Part shown: positions 1,908-7,130 of the stretch, piece after piece
How positions within the stretch are numbered: the first letter of the stretch is position 1
Layout of the letters: each line of letters begins with the position of its first letter
Source of the DNA: Bacteroidota bacterium
GTDB taxonomy: Bacteria; Bacteroidota; Bacteroidia; Sphingobacteriales; Sphingobacteriaceae
Length of the DNA stretch: 15,128 nt
Assembly (NCBI GenBank): GCA_013286985.1
Contig: JABDEQ010000062.1
Location: forward strand, 1 to 15,128
Direction of reading: 5' to 3'
Translations under genes and position numbers: made by a program
The notes under the pieces: generated by a model
What the model saw: only the letters and a program-made list of their open reading frames with translations
What the model was told of the DNA's origin: nothing
The model's database searches: none

Positions 1908-1942
1908 AGATATGAGATGTGAGATAAGAGATTTGAGATTTT
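1908..1942. repeat. Degenerate 7-bp tandem repeat, five units, upstream of guaA
   Basis: Reading the plus strand, five consecutive heptamers follow the pattern AGATnnG: AGATATG, AGATGTG, AGATAAG, AGATTTG, AGATTTT. The array starts 6 bp upstream of the guaA -7 element and covers the place where its -33 element would be expected. Two other 7-bp-period arrays with different unit sequences occur in the window, inside and upstream of folC. Confidence 0.8.
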
Positions 1943-2027
1943 TAAATTAACTCCTTAATTAAAATTTAAACAATAACTTGAAAACTAGTGTCATCTTTTG
2001 TAATATAGCGAACCAATTGTACACCTT

Positions 2028-2423
2028 ATGCAAAAAATCACTAACTTTTTAATGTTCAACGGCAGGGCCGAGGAAGCAATGGACTTTTATATTTCCTTGT
2101 TTAACGATGCCCAAATTGTTAGTATTAAGCATTATGGCCCTAATGAAGCGGGTATTAAAGACACGGTGATGCATGCCTTGTTTACCCTTAATGGCCAGTT
2201 GTTTATGTGTATTGATAGCTCGGTACAGCATGGTTTTACGTTTACCCCGGCTATGTCGCTTTATATTAATTGCGAATCGAACGAGGAGATTGAGACGTTG
2301 TTTAATGCGCTATCGGCCAATGGAGATATATTGATGCCTTTAGATGAATATCCTTTCAGTAAAAAATACGGTTGGCTTACGGATCAGTTCGGGGTTTCGT
2401 GGCAATTAAATTATAACAGGTAA
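2028..2423 (+). CDS. VOC-superfamily protein, PhnB/3-demethylubiquinone methyltransferase-like
   Basis: This is a single-domain protein of 131 residues in the vicinal-oxygen-chelate fold, PhnB/YjdN subgroup. The N-terminus (ITNFLMFNGRAEEAMDFY, then SLFNDAQI) is the first beta-alpha-beta unit with the usual 'FNGRAEEAMDFY' helix. The central TVMHALFTLNGQLFMCID and the C-terminal YGWLTDQFGVSWQL are signatures of this subgroup. The family name 3-demethylubiquinone-9 3-methyltransferase is historical; no methylation activity should be assumed, and the substrate is unknown. The start is ATG at 2028, with no obvious Shine-Dalgarno. It lies divergent from guaA and appears to be a stand-alone gene; the next gene begins 41 bp downstream with its own promoter-like element. 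Confidence 0.88.
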   Translation: MQKITNFLMFNGRAEEAMDFYISLFNDAQIVSIKHYGPNEAGIKDTVMHALFTLNGQLFMCIDSSVQHGFTFTPAMSLYINCESNEEIETLFNALSANGDILMPLDEYPFSKKYGWLTDQFGVSWQLNYNR

Positions 2424-2452
2424 TTGGTTCAGGTTATAAAGGATGGATTTGC

Positions 2453-2460
2453 TTTATTTG
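2453..2460 (+). promoter_or_regulatory. Possible -7 element of the GNAT gene
   Basis: TTTATTTG matches the Bacteroidota TAnnTTTG consensus at five of its six fixed positions and ends 4 bp before the ATG at 2465. This again implies little or no 5' leader. A TTGG at 2424-2427 is somewhat too far upstream to be a convincing -33 element. Confidence 0.3.
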
Positions 2461-2464
2461 TATT

Positions 2465-3004
2465 ATGTCAATAACCACGAGGCTTGCCACGGCCGCAGAT
2501 ATTCCCCAACTGAATATAATGATAGCCCGTTCTGTTCGCGGGTTAAGTACCGATTATTATACACCGGGTCAGATAGAAAGTGCCATTAAATACATTTTTG
2601 GGGTAGATACGCAATTAGTGATTGATGGTACCTATTACATTGCCGAAAAAGACGGCATGCTTGCCGGCTGCGGCGGATGGAGCAAGCGCAATACGCTGTA
2701 TGGCGGTGATCAGCACAAGGAGGTGGAAGATCCCTTGCTTGACCCGGCAAAGGATGCGGCCCGCATAAGGGCATTCTTTGTGCACCCTGATTATGCCAGG
2801 CAAGGTGTTGGTACACATATTATTAATGTTTGCGAGACTACAGCCCAGCAAAATGGATTTACCAGTTTTGAGCTGGGCGCTACCTTACCGGGCGTGCCAC
2901 TTTATAAAGCAATGGGATATAATGAACTGGAAAGAATAGATGCCCATTTACCGGATGGTGAACTTTTAGGCATCGTGAAAATGAGAAAGGTTTTAAACGG
3001 ATAA
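2465..3004 (+). CDS. GNAT-family N-acetyltransferase
   Basis: The gene encodes a protein of 179 residues, the typical size of a GNAT domain. The start MSITTRLATAADIPQLN is the common first strand and helix of these enzymes. The acetyl-CoA-binding motif A is clear: FFVHPDYARQGVGTHII, with the pyrophosphate loop RQGVGT at 112-117. Motif B follows, with FELGATLPGVPLYKAMGY and the conserved aromatic near residue 152. GNAT enzymes move an acetyl group from acetyl-CoA to an amine; the acceptor cannot be read from the sequence. The insert around residues 75-100 (NTLYGGDQHKEVEDPLLDP) is seen in a widespread subgroup of uncharacterised GNATs. The flanking genes do not suggest a pathway. Confidence 0.92.
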   Translation: MSITTRLATAADIPQLNIMIARSVRGLSTDYYTPGQIESAIKYIFGVDTQLVIDGTYYIAEKDGMLAGCGGWSKRNTLYGGDQHKEVEDPLLDPAKDAARIRAFFVHPDYARQGVGTHIINVCETTAQQNGFTSFELGATLPGVPLYKAMGYNELERIDAHLPDGELLGIVKMRKVLNG

Positions 3005-3055
3005 GTTAAACCTTGCAACCTGCTAACCGTCAATTGCATTATAATTTTTGATTTT

Positions 3056-3952
3056 ATGAAATACGGCGCTTTAATTATTTTATTGATGCTTACCATAAAA
3101 GTATCGGCCCAATCTCAGCAAAAAAGAGAGCATATTACGGTTGATGGAATAACCCGCGAATTTATTGTATATACGCCTGCTGTGAGTTCGCCGGATAAAT
3201 TACCGGTTTTAATTTCGCTGCACGGCAGGTTAGGCACCGGCAATGGCATGATGAAGTTTGCAGATTTTAGGCCAATTGCCGATAAGGAAAAGTTTATAAT
3301 AGTTTGCCCAGATGGTATTGACAGAAGCTGGAACGACGGGCGCGAAACACCTGCACATAAAAAAGGAATTAACGACATAAAGTTTATTGATCAGCTTATT
3401 ACCTATATTTTAAATATCTATCATGCCAATGAACAGCGTATTTACGTAACTGGCATGTCAAACGGAGGGTTTATGACATCAAGGCTTGCGTGCGAACTGA
3501 GTAACCGGATAGCAGCAATTGCTGTAGTAGGTGCCTCAATGGATAAAGGAATGGAATATCACCCGGTTAAACCTATGCCCGCAATGTATATACAAGGAAC
3601 AAAAGATCCTTTAGTGCCTTATAACGGCGGTACAATGAAAGGTGCAGGCGGCGAAATCTACAGCCACACAGATATGCTTAAGCTGTGGGCAGAAACGGCT
3701 CATTGCCAGGACAACCTCGACTTAACTAACTTACCGGATAGCGTGAATGATGGCACCAGTATTAAAAAGGAACGGTACAGCAATCCGGCTACAGGCATCA
3801 AGATTGTTGGCTATTCGGTAATTAACGGCGGCCATACCTGGCCCGGAGGAACACAGTACCTGCCAAAATTTATAGTAGGTACTGTGTCGCATAATATCAA
3901 CGCCTGTGAAGCGATATGGGCATTTTTTAAGAATTGTAAGCTGAGGGAATAA
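3056..3952 (+). CDS. Secreted alpha/beta-hydrolase esterase, LpqC/PHB-depolymerase-like
   Basis: The protein has 298 residues with an N-terminal signal peptide (MKYGALIILLMLTIKVSA, probable cut before Gln19). It is an alpha/beta-hydrolase of the poly(3-hydroxybutyrate) depolymerase / feruloyl esterase (LpqC, carbohydrate esterase family 1-like) group. The oxyanion region is LHGRLGTG (55-62), the nucleophile elbow GMSNGG carries Ser135, the acid is probably Asp184 in GTKDPLVPY, and the histidine is His260 in GGHTWPGG. The catalytic triad is therefore complete. It probably hydrolyses ester links in polymers or polysaccharide side chains outside the cytoplasm; the actual substrate is unknown. 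The last 104 bp of the gene are duplicated 836 bp downstream, beyond a toxin-antitoxin pair. Its stop lies 13 bp from the convergent toxin gene. Confidence 0.88.
   Translation: MKYGALIILLMLTIKVSAQSQQKREHITVDGITREFIVYTPAVSSPDKLPVLISLHGRLGTGNGMMKFADFRPIADKEKFIIVCPDGIDRSWNDGRETPAHKKGINDIKFIDQLITYILNIYHANEQRIYVTGMSNGGFMTSRLACELSNRIAAIAVVGASMDKGMEYHPVKPMPAMYIQGTKDPLVPYNGGTMKGAGGEIYSHTDMLKLWAETAHCQDNLDLTNLPDSVNDGTSIKKERYSNPATGIKIVGYSVINGGHTWPGGTQYLPKFIVGTVSHNINACEAIWAFFKNCKLRE
3841..3944 (+). repeat. Direct repeat copy 1 (3' end of the esterase gene)
   Basis: These 104 bp are the end of the esterase coding sequence and match 4677-4780 at 101 of 104 positions. The first 64 bp are identical; the three differences fall at 3905, 3912 and 3913. 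Weaker similarity may reach back to 3834. The segment between the two copies is 732 bp long and contains the toxin-antitoxin pair. Confidence 0.95.
3851..3887. repeat. 11-bp perfect inverted repeat inside direct repeat copy 1
   Basis: ACACAGTACCT (3851-3861) and AGGTACTGTGT (3877-3887) are exact reverse complements separated by 15 bp. The same structure is present in the second copy at 4687-4723. It lies in coding sequence, so it may be chance, an RNA hairpin or a recombination or protein-binding site. Confidence 0.85.
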
Positions 3953-3965
3953 GTTTAGATATGCT

Positions 3966-4370
3966 CTAATTCTCACCTTTAGAGTCAGTAAGTTTTATAC
4001 TATGCTGATACGTGGTTAATCTTAGTTCATCTATTGTTTTAAATTGCTTGTCAGACGAAATGATCGGCATATTAAATACTATTGATGTAGCAGCAATAAC
4101 TGCATCGGCTAATTTCAAAGGATATTTTTTTCTTAGCTCAACGTACTTTTCTTTTATGGGCTTAATCATCGGAATTATTGTGCAATCACTCAAAAGTTCT
4201 GCGATTTGCTTTTCTTCTTTTATTGTAATGTTCTTAAAGCCTATTAGCTCAAGTTCTGTAATAAACGAGATGTAAATATCCTTGCCTTGTAAAAACTCTT
4301 CTAACGTATCACTCCCGGTTAGGAGATATAAAATTATGTTAGTATCAATTAGGATCGCTTTCCCACTCAT
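3966..4370 (-). CDS. PIN-domain ribonuclease toxin, VapC-type
   Basis: This 134-residue protein is a single PIN domain of the VapC type, a metal-dependent RNase that acts as the toxin of type II toxin-antitoxin systems. The acidic metal-binding residues are all visible: Asp9 in LIDTNI, probably Glu41 in ITELEL, Asp89 in KLADAVIAAT, and Asp107 in IISSDKQF. It should therefore be catalytically intact. The RNA target is unknown; many VapC toxins cut tRNA or rRNA. The ATG at 4370 lies inside the preceding antitoxin gene (26-bp overlap), the usual translational coupling of such pairs. The whole pair sits between direct repeats of the 3' end of the neighbouring esterase gene, which suggests acquisition by transfer or a local rearrangement. 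Confidence 0.88.
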   Translation of the reverse strand: MSGKAILIDTNIILYLLTGSDTLEEFLQGKDIYISFITELELIGFKNITIKEEKQIAELLSDCTIIPMIKPIKEKYVELRKKYPLKLADAVIAATSIVFNMPIISSDKQFKTIDELRLTTYQHSIKLTDSKGEN

Positions 4371-4530
4371 TTCTAAGGTTCTTTTGGATAGTTAGGGGAT
4401 CTTCTTTCAGAGTCATAATACCATTGTATTTTTTTGCATTGAATCCGCCTGTAGCTTTCTCCTTATAAAGAGCTTTCTCAATCGCTTCTATATCCTTTTT
4501 GGTAGCCCCCTTTTTTAATACTAATACCAT
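4345..4530 (-). CDS. Probable antitoxin of the PIN toxin
   Basis: The gene encodes a 61-residue charged protein beginning MVLVLKKGATKKDIEAIEKAL and ending NLRNEWESDPN. It precedes and overlaps the PIN toxin gene, the canonical antitoxin position. I recognise the overall pattern, a Lys-rich start followed by GGFNAKKYNGI and LKEDPLTIQKNLRNEWE, from small proteins next to PIN genes in many Bacteroidota. I cannot name a DNA-binding fold: it does not look like a classical AbrB, ribbon-helix-helix or Phd domain. By analogy, the C-terminal acidic and aromatic segment probably blocks the toxin's active site. The start is ATG at 4530; a TAnnTTTG promoter element lies 19 bp upstream. Confidence 0.75.
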   Translation of the reverse strand: MVLVLKKGATKKDIEAIEKALYKEKATGGFNAKKYNGIMTLKEDPLTIQKNLRNEWESDPN

Positions 4531-4549
4531 GATGCTTTTTTTACTAAAA

Positions 4550-4557
4550 CAAATTTA
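4550..4557 (-). promoter_or_regulatory. Probable -7 promoter element of the toxin-antitoxin pair
   Basis: On the minus strand the sequence is TAAATTTG, a perfect TAnnTTTG match, 19 bp upstream of the antitoxin ATG. No clear -33 element was found in the AT-rich stretch upstream. The promoter lies inside the segment bounded by the direct repeats, so the module carries its own expression signal. Confidence 0.45.
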
Positions 4558-4676
4558 ATTAAAATATCACTTAATATATTATTAATTCCACTGGATGTAC
4601 CAAGATGTTTAATAGAGTATAGATATGTTAAACGGGGAGTTTATGATTGACAACTATCCAGTAATCAAAATAGCTA

Positions 4677-4785
4677 GCCCGGAGGAACACAGTACCTGCC
4701 AAAATTTATAGTAGGTACTGTGTCGCATAATATCAACGCCAGTGAAGTAATATGGGCATTTTTTAAGAATTGTAAGCTGAATTGA
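4677..4785 (+). pseudogene. 3'-terminal fragment of an LpqC-like esterase gene (direct repeat copy 2)
   Basis: The fragment is a second copy of the last ~104 bp of the esterase gene at 3056-3952. In the same frame it reads PGGTQYLPKFIVGTVSHN and on to CKLN followed by TGA at 4783-4785. All differences are in or near the last codons: Cys283 to Ser, Ala285 to Val, and a different final residue and stop. Directly before it, the codon matching Trp262 is TAG, and the rest of the esterase is missing. The fragment has no start and cannot make an esterase. It contains the second copy of the 11-bp inverted repeat (4687-4697 and 4713-4723). It may be the original 3' end displaced by an insertion, or the remnant of a tandem paralogue. 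Confidence 0.88.
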
Positions 4786-4790
4786 TTAAA

Positions 4791-5408
4791 CTAGAAGTTT
4801 AAACCAACATTGATGCTTGAACGGGCATTTTCTAACGATGAACCATAATACCCTGGTTCAACATTAGCAAGGCCGGCTTGCCCATCAAACTCAACAAAGA
4901 ATTTAGCATTACGTGAAACCGGAAATTTAAAGCCGATACCAACATCCAGACCGCCATCAACCTTATTAAAAGCCGACGTCAGATTGTCCCCAATCAAATT
5001 GTCTGATGAATTTAAAAGAAACCCGATGTAAGGGCCAAAATTCAAATATACATTGTTGGTTCTTCCAAAATGCCAGCCAGCCATTACGGGCACGGTGATA
5101 TAATTTAACCTGTAATTGATGCCATAAATAGTATTTCCTGAGTTATCGGTTATATAGCCATCGCCCCAGCCTTTTTGGTCATAACTTACTTTTAATTTAA
5201 GGCTCCAGTTTCTTGTGAAATAATAGTCTGCCGAAACTCCTGCGTTAAACCCGTTTACCCACGAGCTGTTTGCGCCTGAATAGGAATCAATAACATAAGC
5301 TTCATTGTAACCTACGTTAACGCCAAATTCAACATTGCTTTTTGTTTGTGCGGATGCTATTGTGCAAGCACCCAGTGCAATAAGTAGTGTAGTAAATATT
5401 TTTTTCAT
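4791..5408 (-). CDS. Outer-membrane beta-barrel protein (porin/PorT-like family)
   Basis: The protein has 205 residues, starting with a clear signal peptide (MKKIFTTLLIALGACTIASA, cut before Gln21). The mature part is an alternation of amphipathic strands with aromatic residues at the ends, such as WSLKLKVSYDQKGWG, INYRLNYITVPVMAGWHFG and NVYLNFGPYIGFLL. It ends in SSINVGLNF, and a terminal Phe is the usual signal for insertion by the BAM complex. The size suits a barrel of about eight strands. It belongs to the broad 'outer membrane beta-barrel' / PorT group common in Bacteroidota; the exact role is unknown. It is convergent with the esterase-gene fragment, whose stop is 5 bp away. It is transcribed alone, divergent from the Ada-like gene. 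Confidence 0.85.
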   Translation of the reverse strand: MKKIFTTLLIALGACTIASAQTKSNVEFGVNVGYNEAYVIDSYSGANSSWVNGFNAGVSADYYFTRNWSLKLKVSYDQKGWGDGYITDNSGNTIYGINYRLNYITVPVMAGWHFGRTNNVYLNFGPYIGFLLNSSDNLIGDNLTSAFNKVDGGLDVGIGFKFPVSRNAKFFVEFDGQAGLANVEPGYYGSSLENARSSINVGLNF

Positions 5409-5511
5409 CGATGTAGTTTTAAGGGGTAAAAGTAATAACTTATGGGCAATTAAGGAGTAGCTTAAAGTAAAATTTCGGCACGGCTTACATAAATCTTAGC
5501 AAGTTCCGGGT

Positions 5512-5541
5512 TTTGTAGCCCACATTACAGCGGTACATTTG
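5512..5541 (+). promoter_or_regulatory. Probable promoter of the Ada-like/oxygenase operon
   Basis: A -33 TTTG (5512-5515) and a -7 TACATTTG (5534-5541), which matches TAnnTTTG, are separated by 18 bp. This is the best-formed Bacteroidota sigma-ABfr-type promoter in the window. The ATG of the Ada-like gene follows 19 bp after the -7 element. Confidence 0.6.
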
Positions 5542-5560
5542 TTGAGTAATAATTAACGTT

Positions 5561-6409
5561 ATGGACACACAGGAAGCACTAAATTATCAACGAATAGCAG
5601 ACGCTATCAACTATATCAAGCTTAACTTTAAGGAGCAACCCAACCTTGATGAAGTAGCCGAAAAGGTACATTTAAGTCCTTTTCATTTTCAGCGCATATT
5701 TACCGAATGGGCTGGCATCAGTCCTAAAAAGTTTTTGCAGTATTTAAGTCTTGATTATGCCAAAGGTATTTTAAAAGATAAAAAAGCCACGCTGTTTGAT
5801 ACCGCCTTTGAAACAGGGTTATCAGGAACCGGCCGTTTGCATGATTTGTTTATGAATATTGAAGGGATGACGCCTGCCGAATACAAAAACGGAGGGCAGT
5901 CCCTATCCATCAACTACAGTTTTGCCGAAAGCCCTTTTGGTAATATCATAGTGGCCTCAACAACCAAAGGCATTTGCTACATGGCTTTTGCAGATGATAG
6001 TGAGCAGGCATTTAAACAACTGAAATTACAGTTCCCGAATGCGAAGTTTACCCAAATGGTTGATGTGCAACAACAAAATGCCTTGTTTATTTTTAAAAAG
6101 GATTGGACCGAGCTATCGGCTATTAAACTGCATCTGAAGGGAACAAGCTTTCAACTCAAAGTATGGGAGGCATTGCTGAATATTCCGGTTGGTGGGCTAA
6201 CAACTTATGCTTCGGTTGCATCAGCAATTCACAATCCTAAAGCCAGCAGGGCAGTGGGCAGCGCTGTTGCTGATAATCCGGTTGCCTTTTTAATACCTTG
6301 TCACCGGGTAATAAAATCAACAGGCGAAATTGGCCAATATCATTGGGGCAGTACCCGTAAGTCGGCAATTATTGGATGGGAAGCCGCTAAAGTTAATTTG
6401 CTTGATTAG
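5561..6409 (+). CDS. AraC-type regulator fused to O6-methylguanine-DNA methyltransferase (Ada-like)
   Basis: The protein has 282 residues and two domains. Residues about 10-112 are an AraC-type double helix-turn-helix (LDEVAEKVHLSPFHFQRIF, then FETGLSGTGRLHDLFMNI, EGMTPAEYKNGG). Residues about 115-277 are an alkylguanine-DNA alkyltransferase, with the active-site loop PCHRV holding Cys247 and the preceding motif ASRAVGSAVADNPVAFLIP. The second domain moves methyl groups from O6-methylguanine in DNA to its own cysteine. Unlike E. coli Ada, it lacks the N-terminal four-cysteine zinc domain that senses methylphosphotriesters; only Cys139 and Cys247 are present. How it senses damage is therefore unclear. 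The downstream oxygenase gene starts 4 bp after its stop, so the two form a repair operon. Confidence 0.93.
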   Translation: MDTQEALNYQRIADAINYIKLNFKEQPNLDEVAEKVHLSPFHFQRIFTEWAGISPKKFLQYLSLDYAKGILKDKKATLFDTAFETGLSGTGRLHDLFMNIEGMTPAEYKNGGQSLSINYSFAESPFGNIIVASTTKGICYMAFADDSEQAFKQLKLQFPNAKFTQMVDVQQQNALFIFKKDWTELSAIKLHLKGTSFQLKVWEALLNIPVGGLTTYASVASAIHNPKASRAVGSAVADNPVAFLIPCHRVIKSTGEIGQYHWGSTRKSAIIGWEAAKVNLLD

Positions 6410-6413
6410 AGGT

Positions 6414-7130
6414 ATGGGCACAATGGGAATTAAAGAGAGAATTGATTCACTTAATTGGGAAGTTATTGCCAGTGATATGAATGACGGGGGATATGCACAT
6501 ATCAGCAATATTTTAACCGGAAGCGAATGTGATGAACTGATTTCACAGTATAACGATGTCGGCTTATATCGCAAAATTATCAATATGGAACGCTACCGTT
6601 TTGGTTTGGGCGAATATAAATATTACCAATATCCGCTCCCAGTATTAATACAGGAATTACGGCAAAATGTGTACCCGGGACTGGCAGCCATAGCCAACAA
6701 CTGGATGCGGGTGCTAAATATCGATAAAACATTTCCTGATAATTTAACCCAATTACTGGAGCTTTGCCACAGTCAGGGTCAGAATAGACCCACGCCATTG
6801 ATTTTGAAATATGGGAAAGGCGGTTACAATACGCTTCACCAGGATCTTTATGGCGATGTTTATTTCCCCATGCAGCTGGTACTGTTTTTGGATGAACCCG
6901 GCATAGATTATAAAGGCGGTGAATTTGTATTAATTGAACAAAGGCCAAGGGCACAATCAAAGGCTATGGTGTTAAATCCTAAAAAAGGAGACTTGTTGCT
7001 TTTTACTACTAATTACCGCCCTGTAAAAGGCAGTAAAGGCTATTACCGGGTAAATATGAAGCATGGTGTAAGCGAATTAACTGAAGGCAAAAGACACACA
7101 CTGGGTATAATTTTTCATGACGCTACCTGA
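6414..7130 (+). CDS. 2OG-Fe(II) oxygenase, DUF2086 family (AlkB-like, damaged DNA)
   Basis: I chose the ATG at 6414 (238 residues); an ATG at 6423 is also possible, with AGAGG about 10 bp before it. A longer frame opening at 6330 would only overlap the Ada-like gene. The core is a jelly-roll dioxygenase: YGKGGYNTLHQDLYGD supplies His142 and Asp144, MKHGVSEL supplies His217, and KRHTLGIIFHDA supplies Arg227 for 2-oxoglutarate. The segment FLDEPGIDYKGGEFVLIEQRPR is typical of the DUF2086 family, described as oxygenases that oxidatively remove methyl groups from damaged DNA. Being 4 bp downstream of an Ada-like methyltransferase supports a role in alkylation repair, as with ada and alkB in E. 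coli. The exact lesion repaired is not known. Confidence 0.85.
   Translation: MGTMGIKERIDSLNWEVIASDMNDGGYAHISNILTGSECDELISQYNDVGLYRKIINMERYRFGLGEYKYYQYPLPVLIQELRQNVYPGLAAIANNWMRVLNIDKTFPDNLTQLLELCHSQGQNRPTPLILKYGKGGYNTLHQDLYGDVYFPMQLVLFLDEPGIDYKGGEFVLIEQRPRAQSKAMVLNPKKGDLLLFTTNYRPVKGSKGYYRVNMKHGVSELTEGKRHTLGIIFHDAT

Follow-up and report, generated by a model that had tools for sequence, protein, structure and literature searches.

The 15,128-nucleotide stretch of DNA analysed here (hereafter the window; contig JABDEQ010000062.1 of the Sphingobacteriaceae assembly GCA_013286985.1) contains a toxin-antitoxin (TA) pair that lies between two copies of the 3′ end of an esterase gene. We consider it moderately probable that this pair, already resident in the neighbourhood, became trapped between the two copies through a single recombination event, after which it would have been removable through the repeat. 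The evidence includes the same architecture in a second genome, a relative that has no TA pair at the site, the older residence of the pair in the genus, and the similarities among the repeat copies.

The repeat pair and its surroundings

The esterase gene (EST) is an open reading frame at 3056..3952 (+) and encodes a 298-residue PHB-depolymerase-like alpha/beta hydrolase ending in KLRE*. Its best NCBIfam match was NF050058 (E 1.6e-42; 145.9 bits, just under the cut-off of 150), and the orthologue in Mucilaginibacter sp. X4EP1 is annotated as an alpha/beta hydrolase family esterase. Repeat copy 1 (3841..3944, +) is located inside this gene. Copy 2 (4677..4780, +), an orphan esterase 3′ end, begins 836 bases after the start of copy 1, with 732 bases between the two. 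They are identical at 101 of 104 positions without a gap, and a repeat finder extended the pair to 3834-3944/4670-4780 (95% over 111 bases). The longest exact direct repeat in the window, 64 bases, falls within this pair, the maximum in 200 dinucleotide shuffles being 17; the match is far beyond chance. The first-pass annotation, made from the window's letters, had described the repeated segment as the last 104 bp of the esterase gene. The repeat and its spacing were as described, but the segment is not strictly the gene's end: given the reading frame of 3056-3952, it stops 8 bases early and lacks the final two codons and the stop codon. Copy 1 continues to KLRE*, and copy 2 has a codon and stop of its own, reading KLN*.

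Copy 2 stands tail to tail with an outer membrane beta-barrel protein gene (OMP; 4791..5408, −; PF13568, E 7.9e-24), and the junction between them (4781..4793) is collinear with the EST-OMP junction of a relative, G019, described below. The stretch on the other side of copy 2, up to the TA promoter (4591..4676), is shared by the window and X4EP1 (64/82 identical); none of the other genomes among the 149 searched matched it, up to five candidates being scored in each. No recombinase domain was detected by a Pfam scan of 20 window ORFs, in agreement with the first-pass remark that the segment has no integrase, and no tRNA gene was found in the window. Further downstream (5561-7130, +), a fusion of an AraC-type HTH with an O6-methylguanine methyltransferase is followed by a DNA-damage 2OG oxygenase, together an alkylation-repair pair.

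The enclosed toxin-antitoxin pair

The segment between the copies contains, as originally proposed, a PIN toxin and its presumed antitoxin. The toxin gene (3966..4370, −) encodes a VapC-like PIN-domain protein of 134 residues (PF01850, E 4.3e-18), whose X4EP1 orthologue, 88% identical, is named VapC family toxin; the NCBIfam VapC models matched it only far under their cut-offs. The presumed antitoxin gene (ANT; 4345..4530, −) encodes 61 residues and overlaps the toxin start by 26 bases. It corresponds to no family model, with no match of accepted score in Pfam or NCBIfam, and PADLOC returned no match for either protein. A search for relatives of the presumed antitoxin gave 196 at E 1e-5, with the listed names being hypothetical or 'UPF0335 family'; among the matches listed, most were from Mucilaginibacter and Flavihumibacter was included. 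The protein has a conserved core, GFNAKKYNG, and the 61-residue ORF adjoins the PIN gene in all 12 TA regions that were fetched besides the window. The promoter side of the antitoxin gene (4531..4590, −; 55/60 identical to X4EP1) has a ACAAATTTAA-like stretch, which occurs beside most other copies of the pair too and which can be read as a Bacteroidetes -7 box. The combination of a PIN toxin with a conserved small partner ORF points to a putative type II TA module of the VapC-like kind, the two products of which would act as toxin and antitoxin.

The locus in related genomes

The window comes from Mucilaginibacter or close kin. The nearest genome found, that of Mucilaginibacter sp. X4EP1 (G001), is 86-90% identical to the window in two blocks of 6.9 and 1.9 kb. 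It has the same gene order: guaA, VOC, GNAT, EST, PIN, antitoxin, EST end, OMP and Ada. Its repeat copies are also offset by 836 bases, and are identical to each other at 86 of 104 positions. The unit of repeat plus module was found at no second place in X4EP1, and a plasmid search for it gave no match.

EST matches were present in 41 genomes, three of which have two, always on different contigs. EST and OMP stand tail to tail with no TA between them in 7 of the 13 EST regions fetched (G019, G131, G120, G023, G084, G085 and G071). The remaining regions are that of X4EP1; G075, with the order EST-TA-Ada and neither copy 2 nor OMP; G094 and G130, with EST beside Ada; G069, with EST alone; and G086, which ends inside EST. 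In G131 (L068:8279-10571), related OMP genes lie on both sides of the esterase (49% and 41% to the window OMP). G019, the closest of the seven tail-to-tail genomes, had no TA match genome-wide at E 1e-10. There the stop codons of EST and OMP overlap, and window copy 2 lines up with this junction apart from a 3-base length difference. Since this single EST end meets OMP where copy 2 lies, the old end of the gene is most likely represented by copy 2. The DNA of G019 thus presents an empty site, and the position of its lone EST end is in keeping with the form recognised by the first-pass annotation, in which the gene carries a new end and the old one is left at the far side.

We searched 149 genomes of Mucilaginibacter for the PIN gene with a match threshold of E 1e-10, and 77 of them had a match at this level or better. 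All regions were fetched for a close-copy set of 12 genomes with at least 54% identity, a cut chosen after viewing the list, where the next value was 44%. In 10 of these 12, the pair is located in the guaA-to-Ada neighbourhood, as recognised by an adjoining guaA, GNAT, EST, OMP or Ada gene or, in G023, by a position between guaA and the TPR gene; all of these are genes of this window. G079 and G010 have the pair elsewhere, outside this neighbourhood. The ten genomes with the neighbourhood-resident pair span both main groups of the gyrB tree, in which several branches are weakly supported. Nine other TA loci (those besides the window and X4EP1, with G010 and G046 left out) had no comparable direct repeat within 2.5 kb on each side, the longest match being 26 bases at 85% (G106), and in the other TA genomes no copy 2 was seen between ANT and the Ada or OMP gene. 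Judged by this distribution, the PIN/antitoxin pair is an old resident of the guaA-Ada neighbourhood and no newly integrated element.

The guaA-Ada interval (1911-5560 of the window, and L064-L082) is a spot of gene turnover in the genus, where VOC, GNAT, EST, TA and OMP genes are gained, lost or reordered. In G063 (L081:6954-7061), the 3′ side of the toxin gene abuts a VOC gene remnant of 36 residues, a further sign that broken genes occur beside the TA.

Comparison of the repeat copies

Because the arrangement predates the split between the window and X4EP1, the two copies within a genome are expected to differ no less than either copy does between the two genomes. Copies 1 and 2 differ at 18/104 positions in X4EP1 and at 3/104 in the window (p 0.0008), or at 13/96 and 3/96, respectively, without the first 8 columns (p 0.016). 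Between the window and X4EP1, copy 2 differs at 9/104 positions and copy 1 at 13/104. Columns 25 and 58 have letters common only to the window's two copies. The small number of differences within the window, together with these two columns, would be explained by gene conversion in the window's lineage, by which its two copies look homogenised.

At columns 16, 34, 73 and 93, copy 2 agrees with G019 and X4EP1 copy 1 has the outgroup letters, a pattern that homology-facilitated illegitimate recombination predicts. At columns 70, 92 and 99, all four copies of the window and X4EP1 are alike against G019, a pattern that a later duplication predicts. A gene-end tree of 96 columns rejected none of the seven groupings tried or found, and thus leaves the donor and the direction unproven.

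The 9/104 differences of copy 2 from X4EP1 compare with 18/82 in the 86 bases before it (p 0.012); without the first 8 columns, four of which differ, the figures are 5/96 versus 18/82 (p 0.0013), these tests having been chosen after the data were seen. By this measure, copy 2 is better conserved than might be expected of an orphan gene end. It includes a perfect 11-base inverted repeat, ACACAGTACCT/AGGTACTGTGT (4687-4723), which is also present in copy 1 (3851-3887) and in the G019 end and is broken in X4EP1 copy 1. The predicted RNA fold has an energy of about −21 to −22 kcal/mol for copy 2 of both genomes and for G019, and −13.8 kcal/mol for X4EP1 copy 1. We considered a dispersed hairpin element, but a search of three genomes allowing up to three mismatches located it only at EST ends (two in G001, one in G019, none in G075). 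We also considered a terminator, but the hairpin is not followed by a T-run and a terminator scan did not report copy 2. As a guess, the OMP or the EST message may have its 3′ end at this hairpin.

A candidate deletion product

The first-pass annotation had suggested that the module could be unstable, with recombination between the repeats deleting it and leaving an intact esterase gene. We obtained 675 esterase relatives in total, of which 120 were listed. Among these listed matches, P0003 is a protein of 297 residues, 272/297 identical to the X4EP1 esterase and its sister in the tree (99/94, a bootstrap not fully settled). Recombination between the X4EP1 repeats is predicted to yield a product of 297 residues ending in HNLNACEVIWAFFKNCKLN; P0003 ends in HNLNACEIIWAFFKSCKLN, an NCKLN-like end of the copy-2 type. 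The two ends have two differences, and the serine of P0003 fits X4EP1 copy 1, not copy 2. Three PIN proteins of at least 80% identity, among the best 120 of 241 matches, are each on one contig, and none of these contigs has the size of that of P0003. The suggested instability is thus supported, at the level of a protein only, by the length and C-terminus of P0003, which correspond to those predicted. P0003 is likely a natural product of repeat recombination that deleted the module, as read from its protein sequence only, and loss of the module by this route is likely as well. Alternatively, P0003 may come from an allele that never contained the module, or from an assembly that skipped from one repeat copy to the other.

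Discussion

These comparisons lead us to favour the following course of events. The PIN/antitoxin pair is an ordinary chromosomal one and a long-time resident of the guaA-Ada interval in Mucilaginibacter. A single recombination in the ancestor shared by the window organism and X4EP1 would have placed it between EST and OMP, so that EST acquired a second 3′ end (copy 1) while its old one (copy 2) stayed against OMP. The likely route is homology-facilitated illegitimate recombination, in which incoming EST-TA DNA from a relative with a G075-like gene order would have recombined with the homologous sequence within EST and, at its other end, been attached to the old gene end by a chance, non-homologous join. 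It counts against a G075-like donor that the window's TA is closer to those of G121, G063, G104 and G112 (antitoxin 88-90%) than to that of G075 (75%). The copies would then serve as homology for RecA-type recombination: in the window's lineage, gene conversion would have brought them to 97% identity, and crossing over would delete the module cleanly, leaving a whole 297-residue esterase ending in KLN. We infer the direction of these events, the donor, the deletion in P0003 and the activities of the toxin and antitoxin.

It is possible, though unlikely, that the order EST-TA-EST end-OMP predates the split from G019, and that the TA was deleted from both G019 and P0003 when the ends recombined; its absence from these two could represent two losses. 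Most members of the wider clade have the TA at this locus, and such a deletion would yield exactly the tail-to-tail EST/OMP junction of G019. In the other TA genomes, however, copy 2 is not seen in the gaps between ANT and Ada or OMP, and the tail-to-tail arrangement of EST and OMP occurs in both groups of the gyrB tree and therefore looks ancestral. We find it rather improbable that copy 2 is the leftover of a tandem duplication, as had been proposed initially, in which a whole esterase was duplicated around or beside the TA and the second gene was mostly deleted, with its last 104 bases left. Although copy 2 is stop-free in the EST frame up to KLN* and the four copies agree with one another but not with G019 at columns 70, 92 and 99, the 41 genomes with EST matches include no tandem pair, the three double matches being on different contigs. 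Moreover, a low-stringency comparison of EST with the next 0.9 kb yielded the 111- and 93-base repeats and otherwise nothing but short, weak matches.

Many integrative elements attach at the 3′ ends of genes, leaving a new end on the gene and the old one at the far side. This form would fit a very small non-autonomous element that a recombinase supplied in trans had inserted at the 3′ end of EST, and the first-pass annotation had raised such a passenger. Yet many species have the TA at this locus with no repeats, and the pair belongs to the neighbourhood in 10 of the 12 close-copy genomes; no comparable repeats flank the nine other TA loci; neither a recombinase gene nor a tRNA was found in the window; and the unit was found nowhere else in X4EP1. 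The old residence and the repeat-free flanks led us to discard this explanation as highly improbable. Short repeats are also prone to mis-assembly, which had been named as a way in which the structure could prove false. Since the independently sequenced X4EP1 has the same order and 836-base spacing, with copies differing at 18/104 positions, an assembly artefact is very unlikely, to a degree that we regard as negligible. Capture of a resident TA by one recombination event accordingly remains our preferred reading.

A more far-reaching proposal is that the locus is a scarless, recurrently removable TA cassette, with gene conversion maintaining the similarity of the repeats and crossover deletion leaving a whole esterase with an altered last residue, with toxin addiction counterselecting. 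We consider this doubtful; if true, the locus would be a natural assay of chromosomal TA self-protection against recombinational loss. As a natural repeat-bounded TA with a precise, scorable loss, it is useful for asking whether TA pairs resist deletion. It also provides a base-level case of a chromosomal TA that mimics an integrated element though an old resident, and cautions that duplication of a gene end is no proof of site-specific integration. Among titles and abstracts, we found nothing on Mucilaginibacter TA pairs or on precise excision of repeat-flanked TA pairs, and we do not claim their absence from print.

Comparison with known systems

The locus resembles 3′-end integrative elements in having a new gene end, an old end beyond it and an empty site in the DNA of G019. 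It differs from them in that the window has no recombinase, the cargo is an old resident and other copies of it lack such ends. The module is like VapBC type II modules in its PIN/VapC-like toxin and small overlapping upstream ORF, and is convergent on the neighbouring gene; unlike them, its presumed antitoxin has no accepted Pfam or NCBIfam match. This locus of a soil bacterium is a case of ordinary gene turnover and no new mobile element. According to PMC2884548, 10-18% of variable segments in bacterial genomes are repeat-flanked, and homology-assisted illegitimate recombination is named as a route to dimorphic loci. Like the segments described there, the present one is short, present or absent among relatives, and located between direct repeats capable of recombination. 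In contrast to those, whose repeats are typically shorter than 30 bases, its repeat is a gene end and is longer, with an uninterrupted identity of 64 bases, and what varies is a TA pair. We class the locus with the short variable segments that have direct repeats on both sides, the TA being its variable part.
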